Assembly (NCBI GenBank): GCA_017552435.1
Contig: JAFZPZ010000078.1
Location: 1 to 49,259, forward strand
Length of the DNA: 49,259 bases
DNA from: Bacteroidaceae bacterium
Lineage (GTDB): Bacteria; Bacteroidota; Bacteroidia; Bacteroidales; Bacteroidaceae
Reading direction: 5' to 3'
Under the pieces are notes generated by a model, which saw only the letters and a program-made list of their open reading frames with translations, made no database searches and was not told the DNA's origin. Of this stretch, positions 1,578-44,971 are shown piece by piece. Position 1 is the first letter of the stretch; each line of letters opens with the position of its first letter. Made by a program: the position numbers and the translations under genes.

Positions 1578-4223
1578 TTATGCTCCCCCTAAAGGGGGTT
1601 GGGGGGTCTTTATATGAACATCGCGCTGCGGGAAGGGGATTTCGATGTTGTTTTTGTTCAGGGTGTTGTAGATGACCTCCTTGATGCGGGCTGTGAGGGC
1701 GAATTTCTCCTCTACAAGCATCCATACACCGACTTTGAGGTCCACGCTGCTGTCACCGAAGTCGCTGAAGGAGACGCTGACAGGTATCTCGGTGTCGGTA
1801 ATGGGCTGTCCGGCATCGTTCACCTCCTGGCAGATAGGTGTGATGGCATCGATGAGAAGGCGTCGCACCTGCTGCACGTCGGTACCGTATGCCACGCCAA
1901 CGGGTATCTTGATGAGCTCGTAGCGGTGGTTACGCGTCATGTTCTTGAAGTTCTTGCTGAAGAGGGCACTGTTGAGGAAGGCGATGACGCCGCCATCGAC
2001 CGTGGTAATCTGTGTGCTCTGGTAGGTGATGCTCTCCACACGGCCGGCTATGCCGTCACACTCGATGTAGTCGCCCACATGGATGCGTCCCGTCATGAGG
2101 CTGATGCCGTAGAAGAAGTTCTCCAGAATGCTCTGCATGGCAAAGCCAAGACCCGTGGCAAGACCGGCACCCACAATGCTGATGCCGTCCTTCGGTACTT
2201 CGAAGATGATGAGCACGATGATGATATAGAGTCCCCAGCAGAGAATGCCAATGACGTTGCGGGCCAGTGTCTTGTTGATGGCCTCGTTGTTATCACTGAG
2301 CTGCTTGCGGTAATGGAGGTAGAAACTGCGCAGGGCATAGTTGATGTAGCGGAAGATGAAAAAGAGTGCCGCTGCCATGCAAATCCAGTAAAGTGAGACG
2401 CGTATGATGCCCGTCTGGTTGACGATATCCCGTGTGAAGACTTTCTGGCATAGACTTGTCATCTCGAACACCTCTGCTGCCCAGTAGATGCTGATTAGGA
2501 TAGAGAGCACGGCCAGAATGGGTACCAACGTGCGGCAGCAGAAGTCGTAGAACCAGGTCTGATCTATGAACTCGCCCTTCTTCATGCGTCGCAGCAGGTC
2601 CTGGCGCTCATTCTCGTCATCGTCGCTGGAACCGAGGCGATGCAACAGATAGTGTGCCTCGTACTTCTTCGTCAGGTCGTAGATGCAGGTGATAGTCATG
2701 ATGGCCGCCAGTTGGAAAGTCCACCATATCATAATCTGCACAGCGAGCAGGGTGTAGCCGGCCCATGCAGCTAGGCAGGAGAAGAACATTGCCATGGTGG
2801 TGATGTGCATGTAGCACTTGTCCAGCAGAGGCAGGTATTGTCTGTGCCGCCGTGACACGAAGTACTGCCAGATGGAGAAAATGAGCAGGATAGGCGGGAA
2901 GATGAGGTTGACCAGCGCATTGGGGATGAGTACAATGCGGAACAGGATGACGATGAAGGCGAGCATCATCAGTGGCGTGTAGATGAAGGCAGCATGCCGC
3001 ATCTGTTCCCCCTTGAGCCGGACATAAAGACTCAGGAAAATGGCTTCGAGCAGCCAGGCGATGTTGATGATGAGTCCTGTGCCCATCTGTATGAAGTTAT
3101 GCTGAGAGATGCCCCGGACCACCATAGCGATGATGCCAAAGATGGCGATGCCAACCACATTGATGAGCATTGTCCTCTTGACCTTGAAGTCCGGTCCACG
3201 CCATTTCTTCGGCATCAGCCAGCGCAGTATGATGTAGCTGATGCCAAGCGAAAGGGCGAGGTAGAGGACGAGGAAGATGCTGATGAAAAGCACGATGGCG
3301 CCTCGCCATTCGGAATAGAGTTGTCCGTGCCCCTTGAATGGCTTGTACTTCATGTCGATGGTCGATTTTGTCATCATAATCTGCATGGGCAATGAGGCAA
3401 GGATACTGAAGTAGTTGGAGCTGCCATTGCGGAAAATGTTGTCCTGCAGTAGCTTGTACCGGCTCTGTGCATACTCGTCGAGCTCACGAACCTTGTCGCG
3501 TACGCTCTGGTAATAGGCATTCTCTGCCTCGAGACTCTCTAGGAAACGCTGCATGTTGGCCTGTATCGTATCAGCATACAGCAGACAGGCATTGCGGTCC
3601 CGCTGCTGTGCCCTGGTCAGGTATAGCGGCTCGAGATTCTCTTCTTCCTCTTCTGGAATCTCATTGTTTTCGTCCTCCAGGATGGCGATTTCCTCTTCGT
3701 CCATCGAACTGCGTGCGATGAGCAGGGAATCCCGCTTGGACGCTAGGGAGTCAATAGCCTGAAGGAGGATGCTGTCGCTGCTGCTGAGGGTGCTGTCGGC
3801 ATCGATGACGGGCGGCATGCTCTTGAGGGAGCGGATGAGGTAGTCGGTGCGCTCGATCTCCTGCTTCAGACGGGTGATAATCTTGTCGTACTGTCGCATC
3901 TTACTGTTGCGGTTGTCCAGGTCGCGTCTCAGGTCCGCAGCCTGCTGGCAGGCGTATGCCATGTCGAAGGTGTTGTCGGTGCTTTGCGAATAGAGCATGA
4001 GCCCTATCTGCTCGCACTGGTGCATGTACCATACCAACTGTTTGTGCTGCTGCATGCCCTGCTGTTCATAGCTTTGTATAAAAGCCTGCTGCATCTCGTA
4101 GTTGGCTTGTAGCTCGGCTTTGAGCACGCCAAGTGTACGTGCCAGGTCTTTCTCCTTGAGTACGGAGCCGCCAGGAATTGTAAAAATGAGCAGCAAGGCT
4201 GCGAGGGAAAGGATTCTTTTCAT
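1578..4223 (-). CDS. Mechanosensitive channel of the MscS family (large, MscK-like layout)
   Basis: An 881-residue inner-membrane channel expected to open under membrane tension and release solutes during osmotic downshock. It starts with a signal-type sequence (MKRILSLAALLLIFTIPGG). Residues ~25-270 form a charged, coiled-coil-rich periplasmic section. Several membrane helices follow (~300-640), then the pore-lining helix and MscS beta domain: GLGFAMQSILENFFYG at ~686-701 and the stretch from GRIHVGDYIECDGIAGRVES to the C-terminal domain. The length is far above E. coli MscS (286 residues) and resembles extended MscK/YbdG-like members. The last residues TPQPPLGGA come from a G/C repeat element, not from the family. 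It lies 32 bases downstream of the GH31 gene and is probably cotranscribed with it; its ATG lies inside a GGCCCC-type junction repeat. Confidence 0.85.
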   Translation of the reverse strand: MKRILSLAALLLIFTIPGGSVLKEKDLARTLGVLKAELQANYEMQQAFIQSYEQQGMQQHKQLVWYMHQCEQIGLMLYSQSTDNTFDMAYACQQAADLRRDLDNRNSKMRQYDKIITRLKQEIERTDYLIRSLKSMPPVIDADSTLSSSDSILLQAIDSLASKRDSLLIARSSMDEEEIAILEDENNEIPEEEEENLEPLYLTRAQQRDRNACLLYADTIQANMQRFLESLEAENAYYQSVRDKVRELDEYAQSRYKLLQDNIFRNGSSNYFSILASLPMQIMMTKSTIDMKYKPFKGHGQLYSEWRGAIVLFISIFLVLYLALSLGISYIILRWLMPKKWRGPDFKVKRTMLINVVGIAIFGIIAMVVRGISQHNFIQMGTGLIINIAWLLEAIFLSLYVRLKGEQMRHAAFIYTPLMMLAFIVILFRIVLIPNALVNLIFPPILLIFSIWQYFVSRRHRQYLPLLDKCYMHITTMAMFFSCLAAWAGYTLLAVQIMIWWTFQLAAIMTITCIYDLTKKYEAHYLLHRLGSSDDDENERQDLLRRMKKGEFIDQTWFYDFCCRTLVPILAVLSILISIYWAAEVFEMTSLCQKVFTRDIVNQTGIIRVSLYWICMAAALFFIFRYINYALRSFYLHYRKQLSDNNEAINKTLARNVIGILCWGLYIIIVLIIFEVPKDGISIVGAGLATGLGFAMQSILENFFYGISLMTGRIHVGDYIECDGIAGRVESITYQSTQITTVDGGVIAFLNSALFSKNFKNMTRNHRYELIKIPVGVAYGTDVQQVRRLLIDAITPICQEVNDAGQPITDTEIPVSVSFSDFGDSSVDLKVGVWMLVEEKFALTARIKEVIYNTLNKNNIEIPFPQRDVHIKTPQPPLGGA
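1583..1608 (-). repeat. G/C hairpin element, copy 1 (encodes MscS C-terminal tail)
   Basis: On the minus strand the element reads as a C-rich arm (ACCCCCCAA) followed by the hairpin CCCCCTTTAGGGGG. It lies at the 3' end of the mscS-like frame and encodes its last residues, TPQPPLGGA. It shares its layout with about 14 other copies in the window. Confidence 0.75.
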
Positions 4224-4258
4224 GGGGCTAATAGGGCTTATGGGGGGGATGGGGCCTA
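4224..4258. repeat. GGCCCC/TAAGCCC junction repeat
   Basis: The gap between GH31 and mscS is filled by short degenerate units, on the minus strand GGCCCCAT..., CATAAGCCC, TATTAGCCCC. The same word set recurs at 11812-11836 and 25586-25616, also in gaps between neighbouring genes. Confidence 0.6.
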
Positions 4259-7216: not shown

Positions 7217-7245
7217 AAAGCTAATATAATATGTTATTTGCACCG

Positions 7246-7277
7246 CAAAGTTACGAATAAGCAAGCAAAATGCCAAA
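7246..7277 (-). promoter_or_regulatory. Promoter of the GH31 gene, overlapping an upstream terminator
   Basis: TAACTTTG (rc of 7246-7253) is a consensus -7 box, and a TTTG (rc of 7274-7277) lies 20 bases upstream. That TTTG belongs to the descending arm of the tolC terminator hairpin at 7269-7302, so the two signals share bases. Confidence 0.65.
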
Positions 7278-7302
7278 GAAAAACTGACTTTTCTTTGGCA
7301 TT
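7269..7302 (-). terminator. Intrinsic terminator of the efflux operon
   Basis: A 14-bp perfect stem (AATGCCAAAGAAAA, 69-82, with 89-302 of this interval) lies 26 bases past the tolC stop codon. On the minus strand it ends in TTTGGCATTTTG. Confidence 0.65.
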
Positions 7303-7327
7303 TGAAAGGAATGGGGCCAATGGGGTA

Positions 7328-8686: not shown

Positions 8687-8718
8687 ACAATTTTTAATTT
8701 TTAATTTCTAATTTTTCA
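8633..8718. repeat. Inverted pair of AT-rich repeats around the tolC start
   Basis: An A-rich block (8633-8667: units like TTAAAAATT and AAAGTGAAAA) and a T-rich block (8690-8718: units like AATTTTTAATTTTTAATTT) are near-complementary. Together they enclose the tolC start codon at 8684-8686. In the mRNA they could pair and hide the start codon. Confidence 0.6.
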
Positions 8719-8719
8719 T

Positions 8720-28564: not shown

Positions 28565-28565
28565 C

Positions 28566-28692
28566 GGCCCCACCCCAACCCTCCCGAGGGAGGGAGATTT
28601 ACAGACATAATAAAATATAATTATATGAGCGAAATACAGAATAATGGAACCCTTATGAATTCCTCCCCTCGGGGAGGTAAGGAGGGGGCTAC
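28566..28692. repeat. Inverted pair of G/C hairpin elements around the atpA start (copies 2 and 3)
   Basis: Copy 2 (28566-28597) reads C-rich arm CCCCACCCCAA then hairpin CCCTCCCGAGGGAGGG. Copy 3 (28659-28692) is inverted: hairpin CCTCCCCTCGGGGAGG then the G-rich arm. Copy 3 lies inside the atpA frame and encodes SSPRGGKEGA. The pair brackets the atpA start codon at 28625. Confidence 0.8.
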
Positions 28693-30430
28693 CACTGGAA
28701 TTGTTATTGGCGTAGTTGCCAATATGGTCACACTCCGTGTGGACGGTCCTGTGCTCCAAGGCGAGATATGCTACATCACCACAGGCGGCGACAGACTGAT
28801 GGCTGAGGTCATCAAGGTCGTAGGACAGGATGTCTATGTGCAAGTCTTTGAAAGTACGCGCGGTCTGAAGGTGGGTGCTGAGGCAGAGTTCACGGGGCAC
28901 ATGCTTGAGATACAACTCGGTCCGGGTATGCTCAGTCATAACTATGATGGTCTGCAGAACGACCTCGACAAGATGGATGGCGTTTTCCTGAAGCGCGGTC
29001 AATATACAGAGCCTCTTGACGACGAGCGCCTTTGGGATTTCGAACCTCTTGCTAAGGTTGGTGACAAGGTGCAGGCGAGTGATTGGCTCGGCAAAGTGGA
29101 GGAGAACCACCAGCCCCTTAAGATTATGGCTCCCTTCCAGATGAAAGGAACTGCAACGGTCAAAAGCATCGTGGCTAAGGGTCAGTACAAGATACACGAC
29201 ACCATTGCCGTCTTGACAGACGAGCAGGGAAACGACATCAATGTTGATATGGTGCAGCATTGGCCCGTGAAGTTCGCTATGACCAACTACCGCGAGAAGC
29301 CGCGTCCATTCAAACTCTTGGAGACAGGTGTCCGCACTATCGATACCTTCAACCCCATCGTAGAGGGTGGCACGGGCTTCATCCCCGGACCTTTCGGTAC
29401 AGGTAAGACCGTGTTGCAGCATGCCATCTCGAAGCAGGCAGAAGCTGACATCGTGGTTATTGCTGCCTGCGGCGAACGTGCCAACGAGGTTGTGGAAATC
29501 TTTACCGAGTTCCCGGAACTGGTTGACCCCCACACTGGCCGTAAGCTGATGGAACGTACCATCATCATTGCCAATACCTCCAATATGCCCGTTGCAGCTC
29601 GTGAGGCTTCTGTCTATACAGCTATGACAATGGCGGAGTACTACCGCTCGATGGGCTTGCGTGTGCTGTTGATGGCCGACTCCACTTCCCGTTGGGCACA
29701 GGCTTTGCGTGAGATGTCCAACCGTATGGAAGAGCTGCCAGGCCCCGATGCCTTCCCAATGGACCTCGGTGCCCTCATCAGCAACTTCTATGGTCGTGCC
29801 GGCTATGTCTATCTCAACAATGGCGAAGTTGGCTCTGTCACCTTCCTCGGTACCGTATCACCTGCCGGTGGTAACTTGAAGGAACCCGTTACCGAGAGCA
29901 CGAAGAAAGTGGCCCGTTGCTTCTATGCACTCGAACAGGACCGTGCCGACAAGAAGCGCTATCCGGCTGTCAACCCCATCGACTCCTACTCTAAGTACCT
30001 CGAGTACCCAGAGTTCGCTGAGTACATAAAGGGACATATCAATGATGAATGGATTCCCAAGGTGCTTGCCCTCAAGACCCGTATGCAGCGTGGTAAGGAG
30101 ATCGCCGAGCAGATCAACATCCTTGGCGATGATGGCGTGCCTGTCGATTACCACATCGTCTTCTGGAAGTCCGAGGTCATCGACTATGTCATCCTGCAGC
30201 AGGATGCCTTCGACGAAGTGGATGCCGTAACGCCCCTTGCGCGTCAGGAAGAGATACTGAACCTCGTCACGATGATTTGCGACAAGGACGACTACAAGTT
30301 CGACACCTTCCTCGACGTCATCGACTACTTCAAGAAGCTCATCAATCTCTGCAAGCAGATGAACTACTCACAGTACAAGAGCGAGCAGTACTACGACTAC
30401 ATCAAGCAAATAGAAGAAATGATAAAGTAA
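28625..30430 (+). CDS. atpA: V-type ATPase catalytic subunit A
   Basis: A 601-residue catalytic subunit that binds and hydrolyses or makes ATP. The Walker A motif GPFGTGKT lies at ~255-262, followed by the P-loop neighbour AACGERANEVVEIFTEFPEL and the bulge-domain region typical of the A subunit. The normal family start is the strand TGIVIGVVANMVTLRVDGPV. Here it begins at residue ~22, behind a leader (MSEIQNNGTLMNSSPRGGKEGA) supplied in part by an inserted G/C hairpin element. No in-frame ATG lies between that element and the normal start, so translation must pass through it unless a non-ATG start is used. It is probably translated with genes E and DUF2764 upstream and atpB downstream. Confidence 0.9.
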   Translation: MSEIQNNGTLMNSSPRGGKEGATTGIVIGVVANMVTLRVDGPVLQGEICYITTGGDRLMAEVIKVVGQDVYVQVFESTRGLKVGAEAEFTGHMLEIQLGPGMLSHNYDGLQNDLDKMDGVFLKRGQYTEPLDDERLWDFEPLAKVGDKVQASDWLGKVEENHQPLKIMAPFQMKGTATVKSIVAKGQYKIHDTIAVLTDEQGNDINVDMVQHWPVKFAMTNYREKPRPFKLLETGVRTIDTFNPIVEGGTGFIPGPFGTGKTVLQHAISKQAEADIVVIAACGERANEVVEIFTEFPELVDPHTGRKLMERTIIIANTSNMPVAAREASVYTAMTMAEYYRSMGLRVLLMADSTSRWAQALREMSNRMEELPGPDAFPMDLGALISNFYGRAGYVYLNNGEVGSVTFLGTVSPAGGNLKEPVTESTKKVARCFYALEQDRADKKRYPAVNPIDSYSKYLEYPEFAEYIKGHINDEWIPKVLALKTRMQRGKEIAEQINILGDDGVPVDYHIVFWKSEVIDYVILQQDAFDEVDAVTPLARQEEILNLVTMICDKDDYKFDTFLDVIDYFKKLINLCKQMNYSQYKSEQYYDYIKQIEEMIK

Positions 30431-30431
30431 C

Positions 30432-30558
30432 GGACCCTCCCCCTGCCCTCCCTTGTAGGGAGGGAGAGGTTACCTTTCAAGGCATGATAACAGAATAAAA
30501 ATCAACAGAAATAGTATCTACTCCCCTCCTTACAAGGGAGGGGCAGGGGGGTGGGTCT
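30432..30558. repeat. Inverted pair of G/C hairpin elements between atpA and atpB (copies 4 and 5)
   Basis: Copy 4 (30432-30470) reads GACCCTCCCCCTGCC then hairpin CTCCCTTGTAGGGAG. Copy 5 (30521-30558) is its near-exact reverse complement (hairpin CTCCTTACAAGGGAG then GGCAGGGGGGTGGGTC). The arms agree at most positions and enclose about 50 AT-rich bases. Together they fill almost all of the 139-base gap. Confidence 0.85.
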
Positions 30559-32007: not shown

Positions 32008-32053
32008 TTCCCCCTAAAGGGGACTACCCAGTCGCGACGGAGGCCGGGGGCCT
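32008..32053 (-). repeat. G/C hairpin element, copy 6 (long variant)
   Basis: On the minus strand it reads GGCCCCCGGCC, an inserted GC stretch (TCGCGACTGGG), then the hairpin CCCCTTTAGGGG and AATAA, the same end as copy 12. It overlaps the stop codon of the HU-like gene (TAG from 32054) and lies between two convergent genes. Confidence 0.65.
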
Positions 32054-33170: not shown

Positions 33171-33171
33171 T

Positions 33172-34302: not shown

Positions 34303-36663
34303 TCACTCTCGGAACACTTTCTTATCCTTGCCGATGATAACCTTCGGCAATTGACCCGACCCCCCGGCCCCCTTTAGGGGGAGAACACGGCCGCTGAGGT
34401 CATACCATTTACCATTTACCATTTGGTCTTCTTCACTCTTCATTTCCTTGATGGCATCATCACTGTCTCTTTTTATCATAAAGGTGCCGGCGGGGATGTC
34501 GGCATGTGCCTCGTAGATGCCGTCTTCTATTTGCAGATTCCAGGTGCGGGTGCTGGAGGAGCTTGCTACAAGTGATGATGCGATACCTGGTACAAGCGAC
34601 TCGCCGTCGGTGGCAGGGGCGTAGCAGATGTTGTCCTTGGTGGTGGCTGTTTCGGGCTCTACCACAATCATTGTCCAGAACTGCAGGGAGGGCAGTGTCA
34701 GCGTGATGGTGCCGGTAGTGGAATGGTATTTGTAGCCCGTCAGTTCCTGCATAGCACCGCCGCAGTAGTCTGGCGATGCCACCCAAATGCGTCGCACCTT
34801 GCCCATACCCTTCATGCCTGTCAGCCGTATCGAAAGGTTCTCGAAGCGCTTCGGCCAGGGACGTGTAGCCATGTTGTCATGCCAGCAGAGCATGTAATCG
34901 TCGTTGACATCGGTGGCCGACTCTTCGTGTGTGAAGTTAAGCAGGTGAATGATCTGCCGGCCGTTCACTTCGCGTACCAGCATCGTCACTTGATTGGCCT
35001 TTGGTTCCCATGTGTTGATGGTCACGCCGGAGCAGGTAGCTGTGACGCCTGTCTTTTCCGTCCAGCTGTCGCGCAGCAGGTTCTCGTAGGCGGTGAGGAA
35101 ATCGTAGTAGCGCGTCATCCAGTCCTCAATCTGGCTGTGCCACTTCATGCCGTTGTAGGGGAAGTATTCGCGGCAGAGCATGTGGTCGCCGCCAAGTTCC
35201 AGGTGCGAGCCGCCGAGGGCGAACATCACGGCATCTGCCATCACGACGCCCGGCGTGTTGAAGTCCTTGTTGTCAGTCAGGTAATTCATATAGGCAGCAA
35301 GGACGGAGCGTAGTGTAGGACTCTTTTCGAGGTTCTCGTCGATGACGGCCTTGATGTTCGAGAAGCGTCCCTTGCCGCTTGTCAGGCTGTTGCCTTGCTG
35401 GTTCCCCCACACCTCGGAGTAGAGGAAATCTACCTTTCCCGTTCCTGCAATCTGTGAGACGCCCCATTGCCCGACGGCGTTCATGATGAGCCGCTTGTCG
35501 GGATGCCGGTTCTTCATGTAGTTGATGAACGGCCCGAAGCCGTCGCGTAGATTGAGGTTGTTGCCGTAGTAGTCATAGACGGTGCCGCGTCCGCCCAGCT
35601 GGTCAATCTGGTAGCCGTCGAAGTCGAGGAAGGAATACACCTCGTCGTTGCGTTCCGCCAGATAGGCCTGCCATTCCTCGTTGGCAGGGTTGACCAGATA
35701 GATGTCGCTCTTCCACGAATCGGGCAAGTCGTGCTTGTCCTTTGTCGTGTGGTTCTTGTCCTTGAAGACGAACCATTCGGGCTTTATGCCCAACTCTTCC
35801 CAGCCGTCCAGGACACCGAAGCAGAGGTTGTAGAAGATGCTCTTCATACCTCGGTCGTGCTGTGCCTTGATGTAGTTCTTGACGGCGGAGGTGTAGATGG
35901 TGCGGTTCGCGATGTCCTTATAGGTTGGCCAGAGTCCGCCTTCGCGTGTGCCGCCCAGCGGCCAGTCGTGGCGGTAGTGCCAGTCCTGGAACTGCACGCC
36001 GTTGATGTGACAGCGGTTGAGCCACTTCATTTCGGTCTTCGTCTTGCTGAGAGTTTTGTCGTTGCCGAAGGTGGCCACGAAGCCATAGCGCGGGAAGCGT
36101 GTCCAGTCGGAACTGACATCGATGCCGATGGTGGCAAGGATTTTGTCTGTTTCCTCGTCTGGTTGATAGACCTCAACCATATAGCCCCGGAAGTCCTCGG
36201 GCGGTACCGTCCAGGTCCAGTTGCGCGAGGAGAAGAGTGTGTCGGCGATGATGTCGCCCAGGAAACGGTAGCGGATGCGCGAGCCGGATGACGGTATGGA
36301 TGAGATGGTCAGTGTGACCGTCTCGCCCGGCTTGTAGCAGCACTTGTCGGTCTCAATTTGGTAGCGCAGTTTGGGCAGTTTGATGTTTGCTCCCGAAGCC
36401 AGCACTGGACTGATGGTTCGGGATTCCGTTGCTTTCATGTAGGGCTTGCTGTGCAGAGCTATTGTGCCGCTCGTCAATGTGAGCACGCCGCTGTAGGTGC
36501 CTGCATCTGGAGCATCCTCGTGCAGGGCATAGTCGTTGTTGTCGTTGAAAACCGTGCTGACAGCAGTACCAATAGGGTAGAGGCAGGGCGGGTACAACCG
36601 CTCCTGTGCAGACAAGCCCGTCGCAAGCAGCAGGGAGGTAAGTATGGTATGTCTATAATCCAT
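34303..36663 (-). CDS. Glycoside hydrolase family 66 dextranase-like enzyme
   Basis: A 786-residue secreted enzyme related to dextranases and cycloisomaltooligosaccharide synthases, which act on alpha-1,6-glucans. A signal peptide (1-19) precedes an N-terminal beta domain. The barrel carries FDGYQIDQLG with likely nucleophile D354, and LYSEVWG with likely acid/base E417, the two GH66 catalytic positions. A C-terminal beta sandwich follows. The extreme C-terminus (WYDLSGRV ... LPKVIIGKDKKVFRE) resembles a type IX sorting tail interrupted by a G/C hairpin element that encodes LPLKGAGGSGQ. If the tail is functional, the enzyme is sorted by type IX secretion. The start at 36663 is supported by a TAACTTTG box (rc 36674-36681) just upstream. 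The gene is convergent with the lipoprotein gene. Confidence 0.85.
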   Translation of the reverse strand: MDYRHTILTSLLLATGLSAQERLYPPCLYPIGTAVSTVFNDNNDYALHEDAPDAGTYSGVLTLTSGTIALHSKPYMKATESRTISPVLASGANIKLPKLRYQIETDKCCYKPGETVTLTISSIPSSGSRIRYRFLGDIIADTLFSSRNWTWTVPPEDFRGYMVEVYQPDEETDKILATIGIDVSSDWTRFPRYGFVATFGNDKTLSKTKTEMKWLNRCHINGVQFQDWHYRHDWPLGGTREGGLWPTYKDIANRTIYTSAVKNYIKAQHDRGMKSIFYNLCFGVLDGWEELGIKPEWFVFKDKNHTTKDKHDLPDSWKSDIYLVNPANEEWQAYLAERNDEVYSFLDFDGYQIDQLGGRGTVYDYYGNNLNLRDGFGPFINYMKNRHPDKRLIMNAVGQWGVSQIAGTGKVDFLYSEVWGNQQGNSLTSGKGRFSNIKAVIDENLEKSPTLRSVLAAYMNYLTDNKDFNTPGVVMADAVMFALGGSHLELGGDHMLCREYFPYNGMKWHSQIEDWMTRYYDFLTAYENLLRDSWTEKTGVTATCSGVTINTWEPKANQVTMLVREVNGRQIIHLLNFTHEESATDVNDDYMLCWHDNMATRPWPKRFENLSIRLTGMKGMGKVRRIWVASPDYCGGAMQELTGYKYHSTTGTITLTLPSLQFWTMIVVEPETATTKDNICYAPATDGESLVPGIASSLVASSSSTRTWNLQIEDGIYEAHADIPAGTFMIKRDSDDAIKEMKSEEDQMVNGKWYDLSGRVLPLKGAGGSGQLPKVIIGKDKKVFRE
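34353..34387. repeat. G/C hairpin element, copy 7 (inside the GH66 frame)
   Basis: ACCCGACCCCCCGG is followed by the hairpin CCCCCTTTAGGGGG. It interrupts the C-terminal tail of the GH66 enzyme in frame and adds about eleven residues (LPLKGAGGSGQ). Confidence 0.75.
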
Positions 36664-36673: not shown

Positions 36674-36681
36674 CAAAGTTA
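36674..36681 (-). promoter_or_regulatory. -7 box of the GH66 gene
   Basis: TAACTTTG (rc of 36674-36681) lies 10 bases before the start codon, so the leader is very short. Confidence 0.55.
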
Positions 36682-36733
36682 GGCATTTTCGAAAGAAGTA
36701 GGAAGAAAAGAAGTAAACTTTCTGCCTTCTTTC

Positions 36734-36764
36734 TTGCTTTGTAAGCAAAAACGCCTTATCTTTG
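36734..36764 (+). promoter_or_regulatory. Promoter of the PH-domain gene
   Basis: TATCTTTG (36757-36764) with TTG (36734-36736) 20 bases upstream. It places the true start at ATG 36785, not the in-frame ATG at 36734, which lies in the promoter. Confidence 0.6.
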
Positions 36765-36784
36765 CAGAAGAAATTCATAAGATT

Positions 36785-37321
36785 ATGGCAAATTATATCA
36801 AACGAAGCCTGGAGGAAGGCGAAACAATTATCTACAAAGGACGGCTGCACTGGTCGGCAATCTTCAGATACCTCTTCTTTTCATTCCTATTTGCTGTGGG
36901 CGGAATCGCAGCCATCATTTTGGCTTATACCACTTATCCTGAGCAGAAGGAAAAACTCTTCTGGGGCGGCATCGCTCTGCTGGTGCTGGCGTTCTTCATC
37001 TGGATTGTGGGACGTATTGTCCGCACCCGTAGCGAGTTCGCCGTGACGGACACGCGCTTCGTGCAGAAGGATGGCATCTTCAATATCAAGATGACGGAGA
37101 TTCCCCTGGCCCGCATCGAGACGGTGAACTTCTACCAGTCCCTATGGCAGCGCATCATCAGCACAGGTTGTGTGGAGCTGGTGGGCAGCGGTGGCACTTC
37201 GCATCAGGTGCACTGCATAGAGCATCCCATGCAGGTGCGGAAGATTATCGTGGCGTCGATAAAGAAGAAACCAGAAGCCTCCCCCGTCCCCTCCCAAGTA
37301 GGGGAGAGAAGTGAAGAATGA
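36785..37321 (+). CDS. Membrane protein with bacterial PH domain
   Basis: A 178-residue inner-membrane protein. After a short cytoplasmic start (MANYIKRSLEEGETIIYKGR), two membrane helices (~25-45 and ~55-75) precede a bPH2-type pleckstrin-like domain (~80-160: FAVTDTRFVQKDGIFNIKM ... IPLARIETVNFYQSLWQRI). Bacterial PH domains are thought to serve as scaffolds or lipid- or protein-binding modules; the partner is unknown. The last ~15 residues (EASPVPSQVGERSEE) are encoded by a G/C hairpin element. It is followed by an acyltransferase gene 102 bases downstream across an AT-rich repeat. Confidence 0.8.
   Translation: MANYIKRSLEEGETIIYKGRLHWSAIFRYLFFSFLFAVGGIAAIILAYTTYPEQKEKLFWGGIALLVLAFFIWIVGRIVRTRSEFAVTDTRFVQKDGIFNIKMTEIPLARIETVNFYQSLWQRIISTGCVELVGSGGTSHQVHCIEHPMQVRKIIVASIKKKPEASPVPSQVGERSEE
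37278..37311 (+). repeat. G/C hairpin element, copy 8 (encodes PH-protein tail)
   Basis: CCTCCCCCGTCCC precedes the hairpin CTCCCAAGTAGGGGAG. It forms the last codons of the PH-domain gene, encoding ASPVPSQVGERS. Confidence 0.75.
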
Positions 37322-37375
37322 AAGAAATTAAAGATTTCATGATTTGAGGATTTAAGGATTGTATTGTACGACCAA

Positions 37376-37412
37376 AATCTTAAAATATTAAATCATTAAA
37401 TCATTAAATCAT
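37376..37412. repeat. AT-rich tandem repeat before the acyltransferase gene
   Basis: The words ATTAAATC, ATTAAATC, ATTAAATC and ATAAAATA follow each other at an 8-10-base period directly upstream of the start codon at 37424. Confidence 0.6.
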
Positions 37413-37423
37413 AAAATATCGTT

Positions 37424-38539: not shown

Positions 38540-41034
38540 TGCAGCTTCCTGCTGCAGCCATTGCGGATGCAGTGAACCAGACGCTTGCAGAGCGTCGTGC
38601 TGTTGTTATTACCGCTTCGCCGGGGGCTGGTAAATCGACGTTGTTGCCGCTCACTATCCTTGCCGACGAACCGGTCCCAGGAAAGATACTGATGCTCGAA
38701 CCGCGACGCCTTGCCGTAAGACAGATTGCTGAGCGCATGGCGGAACTACTTGGCGAATCTGTCGGAAAGACAGTTGGCTATCGCATTCGTTTCGAGACGA
38801 AAGTGAGCAAGGAGACACGCATCGAAGTCCTGACAGAAGGCATCTTGACGCGAATGCTTGAGAGCGACCCGACGCTGGACGGTGTGGGCATTGTCATCTT
38901 CGACGAGTTTCACGAACGGAGCCTCCATTCCGACCTTGCCTTGGCTTTTAGCCGTCAGGCACAGCAGATACTGCGTCCAGACCTCCGGATTGTTATAATG
39001 TCTGCCACGATAGATGCTACGACCATCTGCGAGGCATTGCAGGCACCGCTTATCGAGAGCGAGGGACGGATGTTTCCCGTTGAGATTGTATATGCCAAGG
39101 AAGATACAGTACCCTGGGATATGCCGCAGGCAGCGGCGAGTGCCGTGCGTCGCGCCTTGCAGGAGCAGAAGGGCGACATACTGGTCTTCCTTCCCGGACA
39201 GAGCGAGATAATGCGTTGTGCGGAATTGTTGCAGGGTGTTTCTGCTACAGTGCTGCCGCTTTACGGCAACCTTTCGCCAGCAGAGCAGCGTCGTGCCATC
39301 ATGCCGTCGGTCCAAGGAGAGCGGAAGGTTGTGCTTGCCACACCGATTGCTGAGACATCGCTTACGATTGAAGGAGTTCGCATTGTCATCGACAGTGGGC
39401 TTTGCCGCACCCTCGTCTTTGACCAGCGCACAGGACTTAGTCATCTTGAAACAGTTCCCATCAGCATGGATATGGCCAAGCAGCGCACAGGTCGTGCCGG
39501 ACGTCTTGAGCCAGGCATCTGTTATCGCCTGTGGACGAAAGCGGCAGAACACCGTATGGCGGAACAGCGGAAGGCAGAGATGGAGTATGCCGACTTGGCG
39601 CCGATGCTGCTGGACATTGCAGCATTTGGTGAGCCGGACGTTTCGGCGCTGCCTTGGCTGACTCCGCCTCCGGTTCGCGGTATTGTCGCTGCTCGTCAGC
39701 TATTGCTTTCGCTTGGAGCCATTGATGAGACGGGTGTGATTACGCCCCTTGGCAAACAGATGGCAGCCTTGCCTTGCCATCCGCGTATCTCAAGGATGAT
39801 TCTGCGGGCAGCCTCGCTTGGGAATGTTGGGCTCGCCTGCAACATCGCCGCTCTGCTCGAAGAAAAGGACCCGCTTGCAGGAGAAGAAAGCAGCGCAGAT
39901 ATAGCATTGCGCGTCGAGAGCCTCCCCCATCTCCTCCCAAGGAGGGGGGAACCTTCCCGCAGCAATTCGTGGCAACGTATCGTACAGGTGGCTGATGCCT
40001 ATCGGAGGATGGTGAAAGCCCATTCATTCACCTCTCCTTCGGAGGGGATGGGGGAGTCTTCTGGCCCTTTGCTTGCCTACGCCTACCCTGAGCGCATCGC
40101 AATGCAGATGGATCGTACAGGACGTTACAGGCTTGCCAGTGGGGATGAGGTGCGCATTGACCGTAATGATCCTCTATCGTCTTACTCTTGGCTTGCCGTT
40201 GGTCCTCTCCAAACCTCTCCGAAGGGTGGCTTTGGGAAAGTTTTCTTGGCGGCGGCTGTTGAACCATCGGATTTGGAGGAATTGGCTACGGAGCGTGACA
40301 ATGTGGCATGGGACAGTAAACAAGAATGTTTACTCATGCAGCACGAATGGCGCATCGGTCAACTGCTGTTGCGCTCCAAACCTATCCACAATGCTCCGCG
40401 CAATCTGCAAGAGCAGGTGCTTTGTGATGCTGTGACAAAAAACGGACTCAGCATGTTGTCGTGGAATGATGATGTCAGTGCCCTGCAGCGTCGTGTGGCC
40501 CAGGTTGCAGAGTGGCATCCCGAGTTGAACTTCCCTGACCTCTCCACACATCACCTCCTCGCCTCGGCGCATGATTGGCTGCCTTTCTATCTTGAAGATG
40601 GTGGGCACTTGCGTACCACCAAGGCTGCACTCCAGAAAATTGACTTGTGTGCCGCATTGTGGGCATTGATTCCCTACGACCTGCAGCAGCAGATAGAGCG
40701 CCTTGCACCCTCGCATATCGTGGTGTCGACGGGCAGCCGCATTCGTTTGGATTATCGCATCGGTGCAGAAGCTCCTGTGTTGAGTGTGCGTTTGCAGGAA
40801 TGTTTTGGCATGCAGGAGACGCCATGCGTAGATAACGGTCGTGTGCCGGTACTCATGGAACTGCTTTCACCCGGTTACAAGCCTGTTCAGCTTACCCAAG
40901 ACTTACATAGTTTTTGGCAGAACACCTATTTTGAGGTGCGGAACGAACTGCGTCGTCGCTACCCCAAACATTATTGGCCGGACAATCCGCTTGAAGCGGA
41001 AGCTGTGAGGGGAACAAAGAAGCGGACCCCCTAA
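38539..41034 (+). CDS. hrpB: ATP-dependent helicase HrpB
   Basis: An 831-residue DEAH-box RNA helicase-like protein. I choose ATG 38539 because it overlaps the upstream stop codon and starts just before motif I (TASPGAGKSTLLPL); the in-frame ATG at 38437 would lie deep inside the acyltransferase gene. Motif II is DEFHERS and motif VI is QRTGRAGRLEPG. The C-terminal half carries the HrpB-specific region (LLAYAYPERIAMQMDRTGRY, WPDNPLEAE near the end). Length matches HrpB (about 800-850). Three stretches are unlike the family and are encoded by G/C hairpin elements: ~461-471 (SLPHLLPRRGE), ~498-507 (TSPSEGMGES) and ~556-567 (LQTSPKGGFGK). The last residues KRTP end inside a further element. The role of HrpB in the cell is poorly known. 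Confidence 0.9.
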   Translation: MQLPAAAIADAVNQTLAERRAVVITASPGAGKSTLLPLTILADEPVPGKILMLEPRRLAVRQIAERMAELLGESVGKTVGYRIRFETKVSKETRIEVLTEGILTRMLESDPTLDGVGIVIFDEFHERSLHSDLALAFSRQAQQILRPDLRIVIMSATIDATTICEALQAPLIESEGRMFPVEIVYAKEDTVPWDMPQAAASAVRRALQEQKGDILVFLPGQSEIMRCAELLQGVSATVLPLYGNLSPAEQRRAIMPSVQGERKVVLATPIAETSLTIEGVRIVIDSGLCRTLVFDQRTGLSHLETVPISMDMAKQRTGRAGRLEPGICYRLWTKAAEHRMAEQRKAEMEYADLAPMLLDIAAFGEPDVSALPWLTPPPVRGIVAARQLLLSLGAIDETGVITPLGKQMAALPCHPRISRMILRAASLGNVGLACNIAALLEEKDPLAGEESSADIALRVESLPHLLPRRGEPSRSNSWQRIVQVADAYRRMVKAHSFTSPSEGMGESSGPLLAYAYPERIAMQMDRTGRYRLASGDEVRIDRNDPLSSYSWLAVGPLQTSPKGGFGKVFLAAAVEPSDLEELATERDNVAWDSKQECLLMQHEWRIGQLLLRSKPIHNAPRNLQEQVLCDAVTKNGLSMLSWNDDVSALQRRVAQVAEWHPELNFPDLSTHHLLASAHDWLPFYLEDGGHLRTTKAALQKIDLCAALWALIPYDLQQQIERLAPSHIVVSTGSRIRLDYRIGAEAPVLSVRLQECFGMQETPCVDNGRVPVLMELLSPGYKPVQLTQDLHSFWQNTYFEVRNELRRRYPKHYWPDNPLEAEAVRGTKKRTP
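39921..40060. repeat. Inverted pair of G/C hairpin elements inside hrpB (copies 9 and 10)
   Basis: Copy 9 (39921-39953) reads CCTCCCCCATC then CTCCTCCCAAGGAGG. Copy 10 (40031-40060) is inverted: CCTCTCCTTCGGAGGGG then ATGGGGGAGTC. Both stay open in the hrpB frame, 77 bases apart. Confidence 0.8.
40204..40240 (+). repeat. G/C hairpin element, copy 11 (inside hrpB)
   Basis: TCCTCTCCAAACC then CTCCGAAGGGTGG. It closely matches the reverse complement of copy 13 at 41062-41093 and encodes LQTSPKGGFGK in the hrpB frame. Confidence 0.65.
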
Positions 41035-41093
41035 CCCCCTTTAGGGGGAATAACAAAAAAAGCCTCCCCTTATGGGGAGGTTTGGAGAGGTCC
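41023..41093. repeat. Inverted pair of G/C hairpin elements between convergent genes (copies 12 and 13)
   Basis: Copy 12 (41023-41053) reads GGACCCCCTAA then CCCCCTTTAGGGGG and carries the hrpB stop codon. Copy 13 (41062-41093) is inverted: CCTCCCCTTATGGGGAGG then TTTGGAGAGGTCC, ending one base before the fasciclin-2 stop codon. The pair fills the whole gap and may serve as a shared terminator. Confidence 0.8.
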
Positions 41094-43235
41094 TTACCAG
41101 ATATCTTCTGGCGTTTCAGGATTGTCGTAAATTTCCTTTGCGCAATATTCGATGAAGTCCATGTAGAACTCCTTGCGTTCTTCATCGAGCACAGATTTCA
41201 GTTTGATGTAATACGTCTCATTGGGATCGAGCGTTTGACGGACGAAGATGTGACGGATGTTCTCGCGGTCGTTATAGTCTCGCTCGGTGCCGTCGTTGGA
41301 GTTGATGGATTTGGGGCCCTTCATGTATCCGTTGTTACGCATCTTCTTATCGACCTCAGCATCGTAGTCATCATCACCTGTATCCTTTTCCCAACCGACC
41401 AGTCTTGCAGTTATGTCGTTTCTGCAGTCCATAGTCAAGTCCAAGGGGATACCGGCAACAGGCAACTTCTCCGGGTCTGTGCCAAAATAAACCTGCGCCA
41501 CACCACGCTTGGAATTGGCCAATACTTTATAGCGAACCTCGTAGGTGCCGCGGCGTGGTACAGGAGGAAGTTTGAACATTACCTCAAAGCGTCCCACAGC
41601 TTTCATTTCGTCGCGATGGAGGTTGCACCAGTCATCGTTCCATGCATTGTAATAAACAAAGTTCATTTCTCGGTTCTGCTGCATGTTCTCAAGGTAGTTG
41701 TAGGTGCGAACAGTATTGGGAATGTAAACGTGTTTGTAGCGCTCTTCACTGGCTTTCTTCAGTCTGAAGTCATTGTTCATGGCTTCGGGGAAGAGGCTCA
41801 TGCCATCGAAACGGATGCGATTCTTCTGGAGGTTGTCGCGCGTCTTATCATCGTAGGAGATAGGTGCATCGATGGGGTAAACGATGCAGTTGACCATATC
41901 ATTGAGGATTGCTATAGGAGAATCGGAATCTACGAGGCTACCGACTTTGTCGGGGTCGCAGCCAATCTCTTCGCCCGTACCCTTTCGGCCGTTGTCTGTA
42001 ATGGGGAAGCGGTTGATATAAACGCCATTGCTGGCCTTACTTTCCATGAGTTTGAAGAGACGACGCTTACCCATAGTAGTATAGAATTCGTAAACGGGAA
42101 TGGAGTAGGTACTCGGCTTGCTCAAGTTGTAGCCATATTCGTTGATATGGAAGACGAGCTTGCCTTTCGGAATGCGCATGGGTAGTATATGGTAGGTTAT
42201 CCACTGGTAAAGCAGGTTGTTCTCGCTTGTGTAATTCTCGTCGGTTGTGAATTTGTCATCATCGCTGTATTGGTGGTTGTCGAGAATCCACTGGGTAAGC
42301 TTCTTGAGCAGGTTGGGATCTTTTGGGTCTATGCCTTGGTTACGCCAGAATTCGTCGGGCTCTGCAAAAATGGTGAAGCCATAGAGACGGTGTCTGGGTG
42401 CGTAGCCGATGTCGCCCTCGGCAAAGCCATAGACAACTTGCATGCCAACCAAATCCGGTATGAGACCTGCTTGGTAGAGCTCTTCATACTTATCATCACG
42501 CACCTTGCTTAGTGTATCGAGCAAGCCGCAAGCTTGGATGACACGGAAACATGCGAGGAAGTCTCCCTTTTTCTCATCGAGGCATTCCTGAATATAGCTG
42601 GCAGCGGTGATGTCTTTGGGTGCAATGACCTTTTCCATCTGATGGATGATACCGTTGATGTTGAGAATGTCTCGCTCCTTAATGCTGAGAGGGCAGTCGC
42701 CATTGATGTATATACTATCGGGGGCCTTATCGACATACTTCACGGAGAGTTTCTTGTCGTTAAGGGTACCCAGGGTAAATTCATCACCGCTTTTCTCGGG
42801 GAAATCCGTTGTATAGAAGTATGCATTGAGTTCGTTACCGCTGTCGATAATGCTGTTGAAGACGATAACCTGACGAATGGAGTCGCGTTTGTGCTCGCTT
42901 GTGAACGCGTCCCATGATGGTTCAGCGATGAGTCCTTCCTCGACAAGATTCTCAAGGTATTTATGGATTGCTTCGTTGTTTGGCGCGAAAACAGTATAAA
43001 CACCTCGTGCGCTGAGCAACTGACTTACTTTCGAGTCGCTTAGTTTGCTGATGTTGACATGGCGCAGGATGTCAACGTATTCGCTATAGGCTGCGTGCTT
43101 TTCCAGATAACTTAGGATAGTCTCATCCGAGAAAACGTAGCGTGCAGAAGTGTCGATGTTTTCCTTACAACCACACAGACAGACAAGACAGACTGCTAAA
43201 AAGCCCAGTTTCTTTATGTTTAAGAGTCGTACCAT
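41094..43235 (-). CDS. Fasciclin-domain lipoprotein (paralogue of the gene at 23422-25581)
   Basis: A 713-residue surface or periplasmic lipoprotein. I start it at ATG 43235 (MVRLLNIKKLGFLAVCLVCLCGC) because it begins the signal peptide just before the lipobox LCGC; the -7 box (rc 43260-43267) lies too close to the ATG at 43250. A fasciclin-like domain covers ~25-210 (for example INGIIHQMEKVI). The rest follows the same unassigned beta-rich plan as the first paralogue. Start (IDTSARYVFSDETI) and end (YCAKEIYDNPETPEDIW) match the paralogue closely. Unlike the first copy it is not next to a glycosidase, and it is convergent with hrpB. Confidence 0.8.
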   Translation of the reverse strand: MVRLLNIKKLGFLAVCLVCLCGCKENIDTSARYVFSDETILSYLEKHAAYSEYVDILRHVNISKLSDSKVSQLLSARGVYTVFAPNNEAIHKYLENLVEEGLIAEPSWDAFTSEHKRDSIRQVIVFNSIIDSGNELNAYFYTTDFPEKSGDEFTLGTLNDKKLSVKYVDKAPDSIYINGDCPLSIKERDILNINGIIHQMEKVIAPKDITAASYIQECLDEKKGDFLACFRVIQACGLLDTLSKVRDDKYEELYQAGLIPDLVGMQVVYGFAEGDIGYAPRHRLYGFTIFAEPDEFWRNQGIDPKDPNLLKKLTQWILDNHQYSDDDKFTTDENYTSENNLLYQWITYHILPMRIPKGKLVFHINEYGYNLSKPSTYSIPVYEFYTTMGKRRLFKLMESKASNGVYINRFPITDNGRKGTGEEIGCDPDKVGSLVDSDSPIAILNDMVNCIVYPIDAPISYDDKTRDNLQKNRIRFDGMSLFPEAMNNDFRLKKASEERYKHVYIPNTVRTYNYLENMQQNREMNFVYYNAWNDDWCNLHRDEMKAVGRFEVMFKLPPVPRRGTYEVRYKVLANSKRGVAQVYFGTDPEKLPVAGIPLDLTMDCRNDITARLVGWEKDTGDDDYDAEVDKKMRNNGYMKGPKSINSNDGTERDYNDRENIRHIFVRQTLDPNETYYIKLKSVLDEERKEFYMDFIEYCAKEIYDNPETPEDIW

Positions 43236-43259
43236 AACTTTTTTTACCATTTTCGTACG

Positions 43260-43290
43260 CAAAGATAACAGATTTTTCAATACAAAGCAA
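43260..43290 (-). promoter_or_regulatory. Promoter of fasciclin gene 2
   Basis: TATCTTTG (rc of 43260-43267) with TTG (about 20 bases upstream). It excludes the start codons upstream of 43250 and makes 43235 the best one. Confidence 0.6.
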
Positions 43291-43307
43291 CATTTTGCTT
43301 TATTTCT

Positions 43308-43338
43308 TTTGCATTTCACTTACATAATTGTAACTTTG
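43308..43338 (+). promoter_or_regulatory. Promoter of the aldose 1-epimerase gene
   Basis: TAACTTTG (43331-43338) with TTTG (43308-43311) 19 bases upstream. The start codon lies 42 bases downstream, at 43380. Confidence 0.65.
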
Positions 43339-43379
43339 CAACACAAAGATACAAGTAACTAATACTAATTTAACAAGGA

Positions 43380-44534
43380 ATGAAGAAGAATCTTTTTCTC
43401 GGTCTTGCAGCAATAGCTGCCGGACTTTGTCTGACTGCTTGCGACAGCAAGAAAGTCAGCGACACAGAGAGTTTTGTTACCGTTTCCGGTCTTAACCCCC
43501 TTGACTTCGCCAGCGACTCAACAGGTCTCTATGTCATTACCAGCAAGAACATGGAGGTGTGCCTCACCAACTTCGGTGGCCGCATCGTCAGCATCATGGT
43601 GCCCGACAAGGACGGCAACATGACAGATGTCTGTCTTGGTCACGACAACATCGCCGATTATGAGAAGTACGGAGCAGAAGGCTGCAACTTCGGAGCACTC
43701 ATCGGACGTTACGGCAATCGCATTGCAAAGGGTCAGTTCACGCTCGACGGCGAGAGCTATCAGCTTCCCATCAACAATGGCCCCAACAGCCTGCACGGTG
43801 GTGGCCCGATTGCCTTCCACAATCGCATCTGGGAGGTTGAGCCTATCGACGAGAAGAGCATCGCCTTCAAGACTACCAGCCCCGACGGCGAGGACGGCTA
43901 TCCCGGCAACATCGAAGTGAAGGTGACCTATTCTCTCACAGACGACAATGCCCTGCAGATTACCTATCAGGCCACAACCGACAAGGCAACTGTCCTGAAC
44001 CTGACTAACCACTGCTACTTCAACCTCAGCGGCGACGGCTCGAAGGATTGCCTCGACGAGGTGCTTTGGCTGGATGCCGACCAGTTCACCGCTGTTGATG
44101 CTGACGTTGCTGTTACAGGCGAAGTGCTCGACGTAGAAGGCACGCCCTTCGACTTCCGCAAACCTATCTCTATCGGCGTCCGCATCGACGACGAGACAAA
44201 CGAACAGATTGTGAACGGTCACGGCTACGATCACAACTGGATTCTCAATACCAAGGGCGATATCACCAAGCCTTTTGCATTCCTCTATGACCCGAACACC
44301 GGTATCCTGATGAATATGTACACCGACCAGCCCGGCGTTCAGTTCTATGCAGGCAACTTCCTCGACGGTAGCTTCGTTGGCAAGAAAGGCGTGAAGTATC
44401 CCCGTCGTAGCGCTTTCTGCTTCGAGACGCAGCACTATCCTGACAGCCCCAATCATCCCGAGTGGCCCAGCACAACCCTCCGCCCAGGCGAAGAGTACAA
44501 GACCACAACCATCTATCGTTTCGGCGTACAATAG
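43380..44534 (+). CDS. galM: Aldose 1-epimerase (galactose mutarotase), lipoprotein
   Basis: A 384-residue mutarotase that interconverts alpha and beta anomers of hexoses, easing entry of sugars such as galactose into metabolism. The N-terminus is a lipoprotein signal with lipobox LTAC (Cys ~21), so the enzyme is envelope-located, as known for several Bacteroidetes members. Visible motifs are NGPNSLHGGG and FHNRIWEVE, the conserved LNLTNHCYFNLSGDG (His general acid region), and CFETQHYPDSPNHPEWPST with the catalytic-type Glu. Length fits the family plus signal and linker. It ends at a strong terminator (44552-44594) shared with the opposing tRNA. No sugar kinase or transporter is adjacent. 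Confidence 0.9.
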   Translation: MKKNLFLGLAAIAAGLCLTACDSKKVSDTESFVTVSGLNPLDFASDSTGLYVITSKNMEVCLTNFGGRIVSIMVPDKDGNMTDVCLGHDNIADYEKYGAEGCNFGALIGRYGNRIAKGQFTLDGESYQLPINNGPNSLHGGGPIAFHNRIWEVEPIDEKSIAFKTTSPDGEDGYPGNIEVKVTYSLTDDNALQITYQATTDKATVLNLTNHCYFNLSGDGSKDCLDEVLWLDADQFTAVDADVAVTGEVLDVEGTPFDFRKPISIGVRIDDETNEQIVNGHGYDHNWILNTKGDITKPFAFLYDPNTGILMNMYTDQPGVQFYAGNFLDGSFVGKKGVKYPRRSAFCFETQHYPDSPNHPEWPSTTLRPGEEYKTTTIYRFGVQ

Positions 44535-44551
44535 TTTTTGGTTTTTTATAA

Positions 44552-44594
44552 AAAGCAGCGAGCCGGGCATTTGCCAAGCTCGCTGCTTTCTTTT
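44552..44594. terminator. Terminator between galM and tRNA-His
   Basis: AAAGCAGCGAGC (44552-44563) pairs with GCTCGCTGCTTT (44578-44589) around a 14-base loop, followed by TCTTTT on the plus strand. It can also end transcription of the opposing tRNA. Confidence 0.75.
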
Positions 44595-44597
44595 GAG

Positions 44598-44672
44598 GGT
44601 GCCTAGTCGGACTCGAACCGACGACATTCAGAACCACAATCTGACGCTCTAACCAACTGAACTATAGGCACC
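44598..44672 (-). tRNA. tRNA-His (anticodon GTG)
   Basis: On the minus strand a full cloverleaf can be drawn: acceptor stem GTGCCTA/TAGGCAC with an extra G(-1) paired to C73, which is the histidine identity signature; D arm GTTC...GAGC; anticodon stem CAGA/TCTG with loop TTGTGGT and anticodon GTG; T arm with GGTTCGAGTCC. The CCA end is not encoded. Confidence 0.93.
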
Positions 44673-44971
44673 GTGTTAGCTTTTGCGAGGGGGCTTTTGC
44701 CCGTTCTCGCGGTGCAATTCCTCAAAATTGCGGTGCAAAGGTACGACAAAGTGAGAAAAATACAAAATAAATCTGCATTTATTTTTATCTTCGAGCGAAA
44801 AGTAGCTCGACGAAGTCCTCCGCCTGCGCCTGAGACGTCTGGCTTTGCCGCCTGAGGCTTCAGCCGAAGACCAACGGAACGCAAGAAGGTACGACAAAAA
44901 ATGCCCCTCCGTTTGGGGAAGGGGCTGGGATAGGAGAAGCCTCCACATAAAAGGAGGCTGGATAGGGTCTG
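44673..44971. other. Region between tRNA-His and the GlsB gene
   Basis: No gene is seen. Bases 44804-44880 hold a GC-rich stretch (GTCTGGCTTTGCC...CAGCCGAAGAC) that could form a weak hairpin. The region ends in two G/C hairpin elements (44903-44971). Confidence 0.5.
44903..44971 (-). repeat. Tandem G/C hairpin elements, copies 14 and 15
   Basis: Two elements in the same direction: 44903-44936 (hairpin CCCCTCCGTTTGGGG, tail CTGGGATAGG) and 44939-44971 (hairpin GCCTCCACATAAAAGGAGGC, tail TGGATAGGGTC). The second abuts the stop codon of the GlsB gene. Their tail has a slightly different word (TGG-ATAGG) from the other copies, so they form a sub-type. Confidence 0.6.

Follow-up and report, generated by a model that had tools for sequence, protein, structure and literature searches.

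The stretch examined here, hereafter the window, comprises 49,259 bases of contig JAFZPZ010000078.1 from a Bacteroidaceae bacterium (assembly GCA_017552435.1) with a genome of 3.5 Mb that is 88% complete. Short elements made of a C-rich tail and a small hairpin are dispersed through it, some as inverted pairs, and in the same genome such elements enclose genes for a DUF559 nuclease. These are probably parts of a hairpin-ended, nuclease-driven mobile element, accompanied by miniature derivatives that resemble REPINs (inverted doublets of repetitive extragenic palindromic, or REP, sequences); that they move and that the enzyme is active are both conclusions drawn from comparison. The autonomous form would be a cassette of 0.44–0.68 kb, in which two inward-facing ends surround a single DUF559 gene whose product is predicted to adopt the fold of Vsr and the homing endonuclease I-Bth0305I. 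Non-autonomous forms would include REPIN-like doublets, which have the same ends and no gene, together with decayed single elements. No description of an association between DUF559 and hairpin ends was found in the open-access literature, to which the search was confined (subscription papers lay outside it).

Hairpin elements and DUF559 cassettes

A dispersed palindromic family with a common layout had been proposed in a preliminary description of the window, which listed 15 copies. Most of these were recovered. A detector for a C-rich tail plus a hairpin with a pyrimidine arm gave 13 matches at its threshold score of 13, against 0, 0, 1 and 0 in four order-1 Markov shuffles. The matches correspond to 12 distinct elements, all among the 15, the thirteenth being an opposite-strand reading of the element at 37276; the listed copies at 32008 (a half element), 40204 and 44939 scored below threshold. 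A covariance model built from ten elements, none from the window and one with a one-base typing error, recovered 11 of the 15 (E<1). The four pairs described as inverted with hairpins inward (28566/28659, 30432/30521, 39921/40031 and 41023/41062) are arranged in that way. Many copies had also been expected outside the window, and the model finds 96 matches in this genome (E≤0.1, about 110 candidates scored) and matches in 53 of 61 genomes of the genus.

In each end, an AG[AC]CC tip is followed by a C-rich tail and, after a short linker, by a hairpin of 6–9 bp. Five MAFFT alignments (A1–A5) were out of register in the C and G runs and were not used, RNAalifold returning only 3 pairs on A4; the covariance model was made from a further alignment, A6. 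In an alignment of 85 elements, which leans towards the structure of the model it was aligned to, 95.5% of stem cells are paired, versus 65–82% with slid partners. Two-sided changes occur in 11 stem cells, versus 1.8 in shuffles (0/500 as high) and 0–8 with slid partners; further pair types are not raised (7 versus 8.4). Stem pairing is thus supported by covariation. Thermodynamic stability is a point against the structure: for 12 elements, single hairpins are mostly little more stable than dinucleotide shuffles (z +0.16 to −3.57), since a C-run ahead of a G-run folds in any case.

Three strong matches to DUF559 (PF04480) occur in this genome, and each lies between two inverted elements with hairpins towards the gene. 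A fourth, weak match, within a long open reading frame (ORF), has no bracketing elements. Across 61 genomes, 31 contain a DUF559 match, for 69 matches overall. After 17 partial, contig-edge or weak matches were dropped and locus L054 was excluded, from the tree as well, 51 could be assessed, and inward elements were present on both sides of 44, on one side of 5 and on neither side of 2. One of the two unbracketed genes (L035) has long inverted hairpins of a different make. Among same-genus genes, 40 of 41 are bracketed by two inward elements. Mock genes, in contrast, fell between two inward elements in 19 of 6895 cases (0.28%) in sampled DNA of two element-rich genomes.

Bracketing extends beyond the genus. 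In a collection of named genomes covering Prevotellaceae, other Bacteroidales, Flavobacteriia and others, the best 80 of 528 confirmed DUF559 matches included 67 with inward elements on both sides, 9 with one and 4 with none; 4 of the 80 loci are identical to loci already counted. The four unbracketed loci have double-hairpin ends, in three of them of the form AGACCCCCTCTGCCC..GGGCATCTCCCC..GGGGAGA. A repeat that follows a DUF559 gene in Sinorhizobium, on its downstream side (ACCCCCTCTGCCCTGCCGGGCATCTCCCCC), closely resembles this double-hairpin end (loci compared: L208, L218, L245 and L166).

Cassettes measure 436–684 bp from tip to tip. The two ends of one cassette are more alike than ends of different cassettes (0.64 versus 0.31; 0/2000 permutations, 92 cassettes), and end similarity tracks nuclease similarity (Mantel rho 0.24, 0/999; 0.185 for pairs below 60% identity). 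In 37 genomes, the number of DUF559 genes, tallied by hand, also correlates with the number of elements, for which about 110 candidates were scored per genome (rho 0.61, p 5e-5). Direct repeats of 3–6 nt outside the tips occur at chance level (40 cassettes, 46 doublets), so no target duplication is indicated, and base preferences there are weak, with no strong target motif (81 cassette ends, 92 doublet ends).

The cassette protein is a nuclease of the Vsr/homing-endonuclease type, as predicted from profile and fold. A profile search of solved structures returned 3hrl, an endonuclease-like protein of Neisseria gonorrhoeae (E 2.7e-29), and 3r3p, the homing endonuclease I-Bth0305I (E 1.9e-9). Foldseek placed the same two structures first for an AlphaFold model (pLDDT 83; E 3.6e-5 to 3r3p_A), with PvuRts1I next and E. 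coli Vsr lower. Three proteins that were scanned score 105.8–118.7 bits for PF04480, over its gathering cut-off of 20.6, and do not reach the cut-offs of the Vsr families themselves; the sole match to those, that of L031, scores 21.7 versus 97.85 bits for TIGR00632 and 15.6 versus 27 for Pfam Vsr. In sets of 31 and of 11 sequences, the residues that never vary include E, D, ExDG, H, D, R and N. The nuclease is strongly constrained, with pN of 0.08–0.23 versus pS of 0.63–0.92 in 13 pairs and dN/dS of 0.04–0.09 in the 4 unsaturated pairs. A role in defence was considered and dropped, PADLOC giving only weak matches on common nuclease domains.

Alternatively, the nuclease could be mere cargo, with another enzyme moving the ends and DUF559 serving in Vsr-like repair or defence. 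Precedents can be cited: a Caulobacter protein with a DUF559 domain, VsrA, is proposed as a mismatch-repair endonuclease in the part of the report available (PMC12907096), and the accessible text of a Legionella study places DUF559 alongside a transposase in repeated segments (PMC12308824). Some element-rich genomes also lack a DUF559 match. This explanation is nonetheless quite improbable, given that the size of the cassette leaves scant space for a second gene, that ends and nuclease covary and that the nuclease is under such constraint.

Cassette sites and gene-less doublets

Cassettes occupy operon junctions or lie in frame within genes (gmk, yicC, rfbB, leuS, alaS, argS and similar names are those we take the protein sequences to indicate). 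For the yicC-gmk junction, a yicC match is present in 98 of 101 genomes of the genus, and gmk could be read in 29 of the best 30 loci. A nuclease cassette is present in 7 of these, and 18 are empty. The remainder comprise a cassette-sized insert without a recognisable nuclease (L147) and three scars or other inserts. In the genome studied here, the nuclease frame continues stop-free into gmk (346 codons; L031, C61:35791-36108). The stretch that separates the nuclease domain from the gmk motif lacks an in-frame ATG and has only two TTG codons, and the two proteins may therefore be produced as a fusion. In leucyl-tRNA synthetase (LeuRS), a DUF559 cassette lies in frame at the same point in two genomes from different families of the same order (L037 and L053), in frames of 1077 and 1086 codons. 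The start of rfbB carries a cassette in three genomes.

Nucleases from the same site cluster in their tree, with 11 changes versus 20.3 in shuffled assignments (0/200). Some lineages do occur at more than one site, and nucleases of different lineages are found at a single site (L056/L057). By these comparisons, orthologous sites appear filled in one genome and empty in another, with nuclease lineages tied to their sites, as with homing endonucleases.

Gene-less doublets were examined in two genomes (352 kb of the present one and 367 kb of G017), in stretches picked partly around matches. Inward pairs of under 200 bp number 12 and 14, respectively, and outward pairs 0 and 0. The doublets are about 70–180 bp in size, and 18 of 29 are in-frame insertions within genes. 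Orthologous sites empty in close strains had been named as support, and sites without elements exist in relatives for doublets as well as for the yicC-gmk cassette. For example, of 11 alaS rows 2 have the insert, and of 14 argS rows 1 has it and a second carries a different one (rows L336, L341 and L305 left out). A doublet at the start of atpA is found in 1 of 16 readable loci (of 20), with a single element in a second.

Doublets have the architecture of REPINs, in which inverted ends are conserved and the spacer is variable. Among 18 loci chosen by peptide likeness, nine units share a length of exactly 80 bp; their two ends differ from each other, and the centre varies. The inner flanks of doublets match cassette ends: the mean score against the best-matching cassette end is 2.69, and the highest of 200 random assignments reached 2.42 (88 ends). 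Likeness of the spacers across all 29 doublets shows little excess (mean 11.0 versus 10.6 shuffled). A host-derived spacer, suggested by the doublet in hrpB, was considered as a general rule and dropped because the families of 80 bp and 108–114 bp have their own inner flanks.

Two alternatives bear on these observations. Under pure homing, only the nuclease cassette would move, at a fixed site, and doublets and singles would be its immobile deletion remnants. Nuclease trees that follow sites, patchy presence with scar-like remnants at yicC-gmk, the relation to I-Bth0305I and the inner flanks common to doublets and cassettes all suit this explanation. It is unlikely, however, in view of the 96 scored elements versus 3 cassettes in this genome and of near-identical doublets of the same size at unrelated genes, such as the nine of 80 bp. 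Functional RNAs or terminator hairpins retained by the host would, on the other hand, account for paired structure with covariation and for the many elements close to the ends of genes; a listing for Bacteroidetes, known here by description only, includes candidate RNAs of 80 and 106 bp that are palindromic (PMC8040213). This can be given almost no probability against the doublets in frame within ORFs, presence that differs between species and an Rfam search of the window that returned one tRNA and nothing else.

A candidate mobility enzyme

The preliminary description had likened the family to REP sequences and bacterial interspersed mosaic elements (BIMEs) and had named REP-associated tyrosine transposases (RAYTs, of Y1 type) as the mover. 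The first part stands, REPIN-like inverted doublets being the better description; the second does not. No match to the Y1 domain (PF01797) was found at E≤1e-3 in this genome, of which 88% is represented. A match is present in 30 of 61 genomes. In relatives, 28 such loci were considered, of which 20 are clear and 8 weak (E above 1e-6), and all 28 lack elements within 350 nt; the Y1 gene flanked by elements that had been sought did not emerge. At four same-genus Y1 loci viewed by eye, the repeats are other hairpins, GCCCT..AGGGC in three (L015, L018, L020) and GATGCC..GGCATC in the fourth (L010); plausibly, they are the “atypical” REPs of RAYT subclass 2.6. Presence of Y1 is also uncorrelated with element number (rho 0.08, p 0.63, 37 genomes). 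RAYT was rejected as the mover on these four grounds. In favour of elements mobilised by a RAYT, the doublets are inverted palindromes in which the tip is conserved and the centre varies, as REPINs are portrayed in the portion of the source at hand (PMC3116915), and Bacteroidetes have a RAYT subclass, 2.6, with “atypical secondary structures” on its flanks according to the accessible part of another (PMC6006769). Largely refuted already, this explanation is very improbable.

A mechanism driven by the DUF559 nuclease can be outlined in four steps. First, the nuclease would nick or cut DNA, as its fold and invariant residues suggest. Second, cassette-free alleles would be cut and repaired from cassette-bearing ones, such that homing maintains cassettes at given gene junctions and new sites are occupied occasionally; trees that track sites and patchy presence point this way. 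Third, the nuclease would act in trans on hairpin ends, allowing doublets to spread without target duplication, which would be consistent with copy number, common ends and the absence of duplications. Finally, present-day elements, which are located at operon stop/start junctions or in in-frame protein linkers, would be the insertions that selection has tolerated.

Several points weigh against this proposal. Mobility and catalysis are deduced indirectly rather than from observed movement or an enzyme assay, and the correlation between ends and nuclease could be plain co-inheritance. Element counts have a ceiling near 110, and genome size correlates with them as well, though more weakly than DUF559 does (rho 0.50, 37 genomes). 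Elements are scored in genomes without a DUF559 match (111 in G018, 47 in G026, 74 in G027 and 21 in G014), G025 has DUF559 but no model match, and G031 has two of each. Four of 11 same-site groups (S3, S5, S10 and S11) do not form one clade. Not every pair can be a moved unit, given the host spacer in hrpB and a 602-bp inward pair that encloses host-like coding sequence. Lastly, the detector itself gives score to the letters of the tip, and part of the tip's sharpness (AGAC in 30 and AGCC in 25 of 88 cassette elements, 55 together) therefore comes from the detection.

DUF559 genes between repeats are also found outside Bacteroidota. A plasmid collection contained 49 records with a DUF559-like match, of which 18 were retrieved. 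In 12 of the 18 loci, an inverted repeat across the gene exceeds the maximum of 100 shuffles, versus 2 of 36 mock genes at the same loci; the other 6 have no such repeat. A direct repeat outscores the inverted repeat in four of the 12 (L165, L292, L295, L299), and two loci, L289 and L165, are barely above shuffles. These loci come from Pseudomonadota, Deinococcota and Cyanobacteriota, and include Sphingomonas (sufB-sufC, pnt and before dnaG), Sphingobium, Novosphingobium, Qipengyuania, Azospirillum lipoferum, Neisseria, Deinococcus (paaD-paaZ) and three cyanobacteria. In the Sphingomonadales loci that were read, hairpins point outward and tails lie towards the gene, the opposite of Bacteroidota, and kinship of the non-Bacteroidota repeats to the Bacteroidota family is one of layout only. 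A wider reading, tentative and somewhat short of even chances, is that DUF559 is the mobility enzyme of an old hairpin-ended class in several phyla, which homes, spreads doublets in trans and may move palindromic families that lack a known transposase. Under the same reading, doublets would have been written into the frames of HrpB and of two essential enzymes, alanyl- and arginyl-tRNA synthetase (alaS and argS); whole cassettes lie in frame in LeuRS or continue into gmk.

Window elements and known systems

The elements of the window are collected in Table 1.

Table 1. Hairpin elements and doublets of the window, by position
Feature	Position	Strand or component elements	Context
Single element, CCCCCTTTAGGGGG type	1585..1609	-	3′ end of mechanosensitive-channel-like gene
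Gene-less doublet 1, 126 bp tip to tip	28565..28690	left 28565-28594 (+), right 28662-28690 (-)	stop of DUF2764 gene and start of V-type ATPase A-subunit gene
Gene-less doublet 2, 127 bp	30432..30558	30432-30464 (+), 30523-30558 (-)	between two V-type ATPase subunit genes
Single element, CCCCCTTTAGGGGG type	34352..34381	+	near 3′ end of GH66-like gene
Single element, AGCCTCCCCCGTCCCCTCC type	37276..37306	+	3′ end of bPH_2-domain gene
Pair 3, 141 bp	39919..40059	39919-39950 (+), 40031-40059 (-)	in frame within hrpB
Decayed element, below detector threshold	40202..40230	+	within hrpB
Doublet 4, 70 bp	41024..41093	41024-41048 (+), 41063-41093 (-)	hrpB 3′ end
Decayed tandem element pair (first copy above threshold, second below)	44904..44971	-	about 230 bp from tRNA gene

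The right element of doublet 1 extends the N-terminus of the V-type ATPase A subunit. Doublet 2 folds as one long hairpin (DNA z −6.82), and its right end finds its best match in a cassette end of genome G016 (L075). Similarly, the element at 41024 is matched best by a cassette end of G036 (L058), and those at 37276 and 39919 resemble, by eye, the ends of this genome's own gmk cassette. The DNA between the elements of pair 3 is mostly host hrpB sequence, in a comparison that did not count rows L098 and L100. Several ends within 28566-30558 have four G-runs on the G-rich strand (e.g., GGGAGGGTTGGGGTGGGG) and may form a G-quadruplex.

Towards the end of the window, a 126-bp direct repeat (47550-47675 and 48669-48794, 90% alike) flanks a nucleotidyltransferase/HepT-like pair of the toxin-antitoxin type (47986-48288 and 48257-48619). 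A further common block with a hairpin occurs at 46559 and 47711. The arrangement looks like a row of small gene cassettes sharing a tail.

Among known mobile DNA, the classical miniature inverted-repeat transposable elements (MITEs) of DDE insertion sequences are short, gene-less inverted-repeat units that share ends with an autonomous form. The gene-less units described here do likewise, but they show no target site duplication and the gene of the cassette is not a DDE transposase. Free-standing homing endonucleases of the I-Bth0305I type, presumably the one named “EDxHD”, resemble the cassettes in their homologous nuclease domain (by profile and predicted fold), in presence or absence at a site and in site-bound lineages. 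The cassettes differ in lacking an intron or intein, in their inverted hairpin ends and in their nuclease-less miniatures; we know of no homing endonucleases with such hairpin ends or miniature copies.

In REPIN/RAYT systems, as in the present family, the ends are short palindromes whose tip is conserved, doublets are inverted, measure about 70–130 bp and vary in their centres, copies are many, and a low-copy gene is flanked by the same ends, which vary with the gene. Unlike those systems, the gene here is predicted to encode a PD-(D/E)XK/Vsr-type nuclease instead of an HUH-Y1 transposase, the tip is AG[AC]CC and not GTAG (AGAC or AGCC in 55 of 88 cassette elements), in-frame insertions are common, and cassettes appear to track sites as homing endonucleases do.

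Two further families can be compared by description. Rickettsia palindromic elements are palindromic repeats of about 150 bp that lie in frame in many unrelated protein genes; they belong to another host, and the portion of the source available names no autonomous form (PMC10969869). CGTC-tagged REPs also occur in Bacteroidetes, mainly as head-to-head dimers, and are said in the accessible text to have no dedicated transposase; they have a CGTC tag, stems of 8–9 bp and a CCA tail, as opposed to the AG[AC]CC tips found here (PMC3733652).

Classes of mobile DNA are distinguished by the chemistry of their enzymes. If the proposal is true, the elements would represent a new class, in which a Vsr/homing-type nuclease is the sole gene, REP-like hairpins form the bounds and gene-less miniatures accompany the cassette. 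With so compact a cassette and such clear ends, the question is directly testable. Many DUF559 genes annotated merely as “endonuclease domain-containing protein” would gain a role, and palindromic repeats described without a transposase would gain a candidate enzyme. Furthermore, recurring peptides in conserved proteins of these bacteria (such as PLEGTGEA, SPLKGE and SREGGE) would be in-frame insertions, which are relevant to annotation, structure prediction and genome bins.

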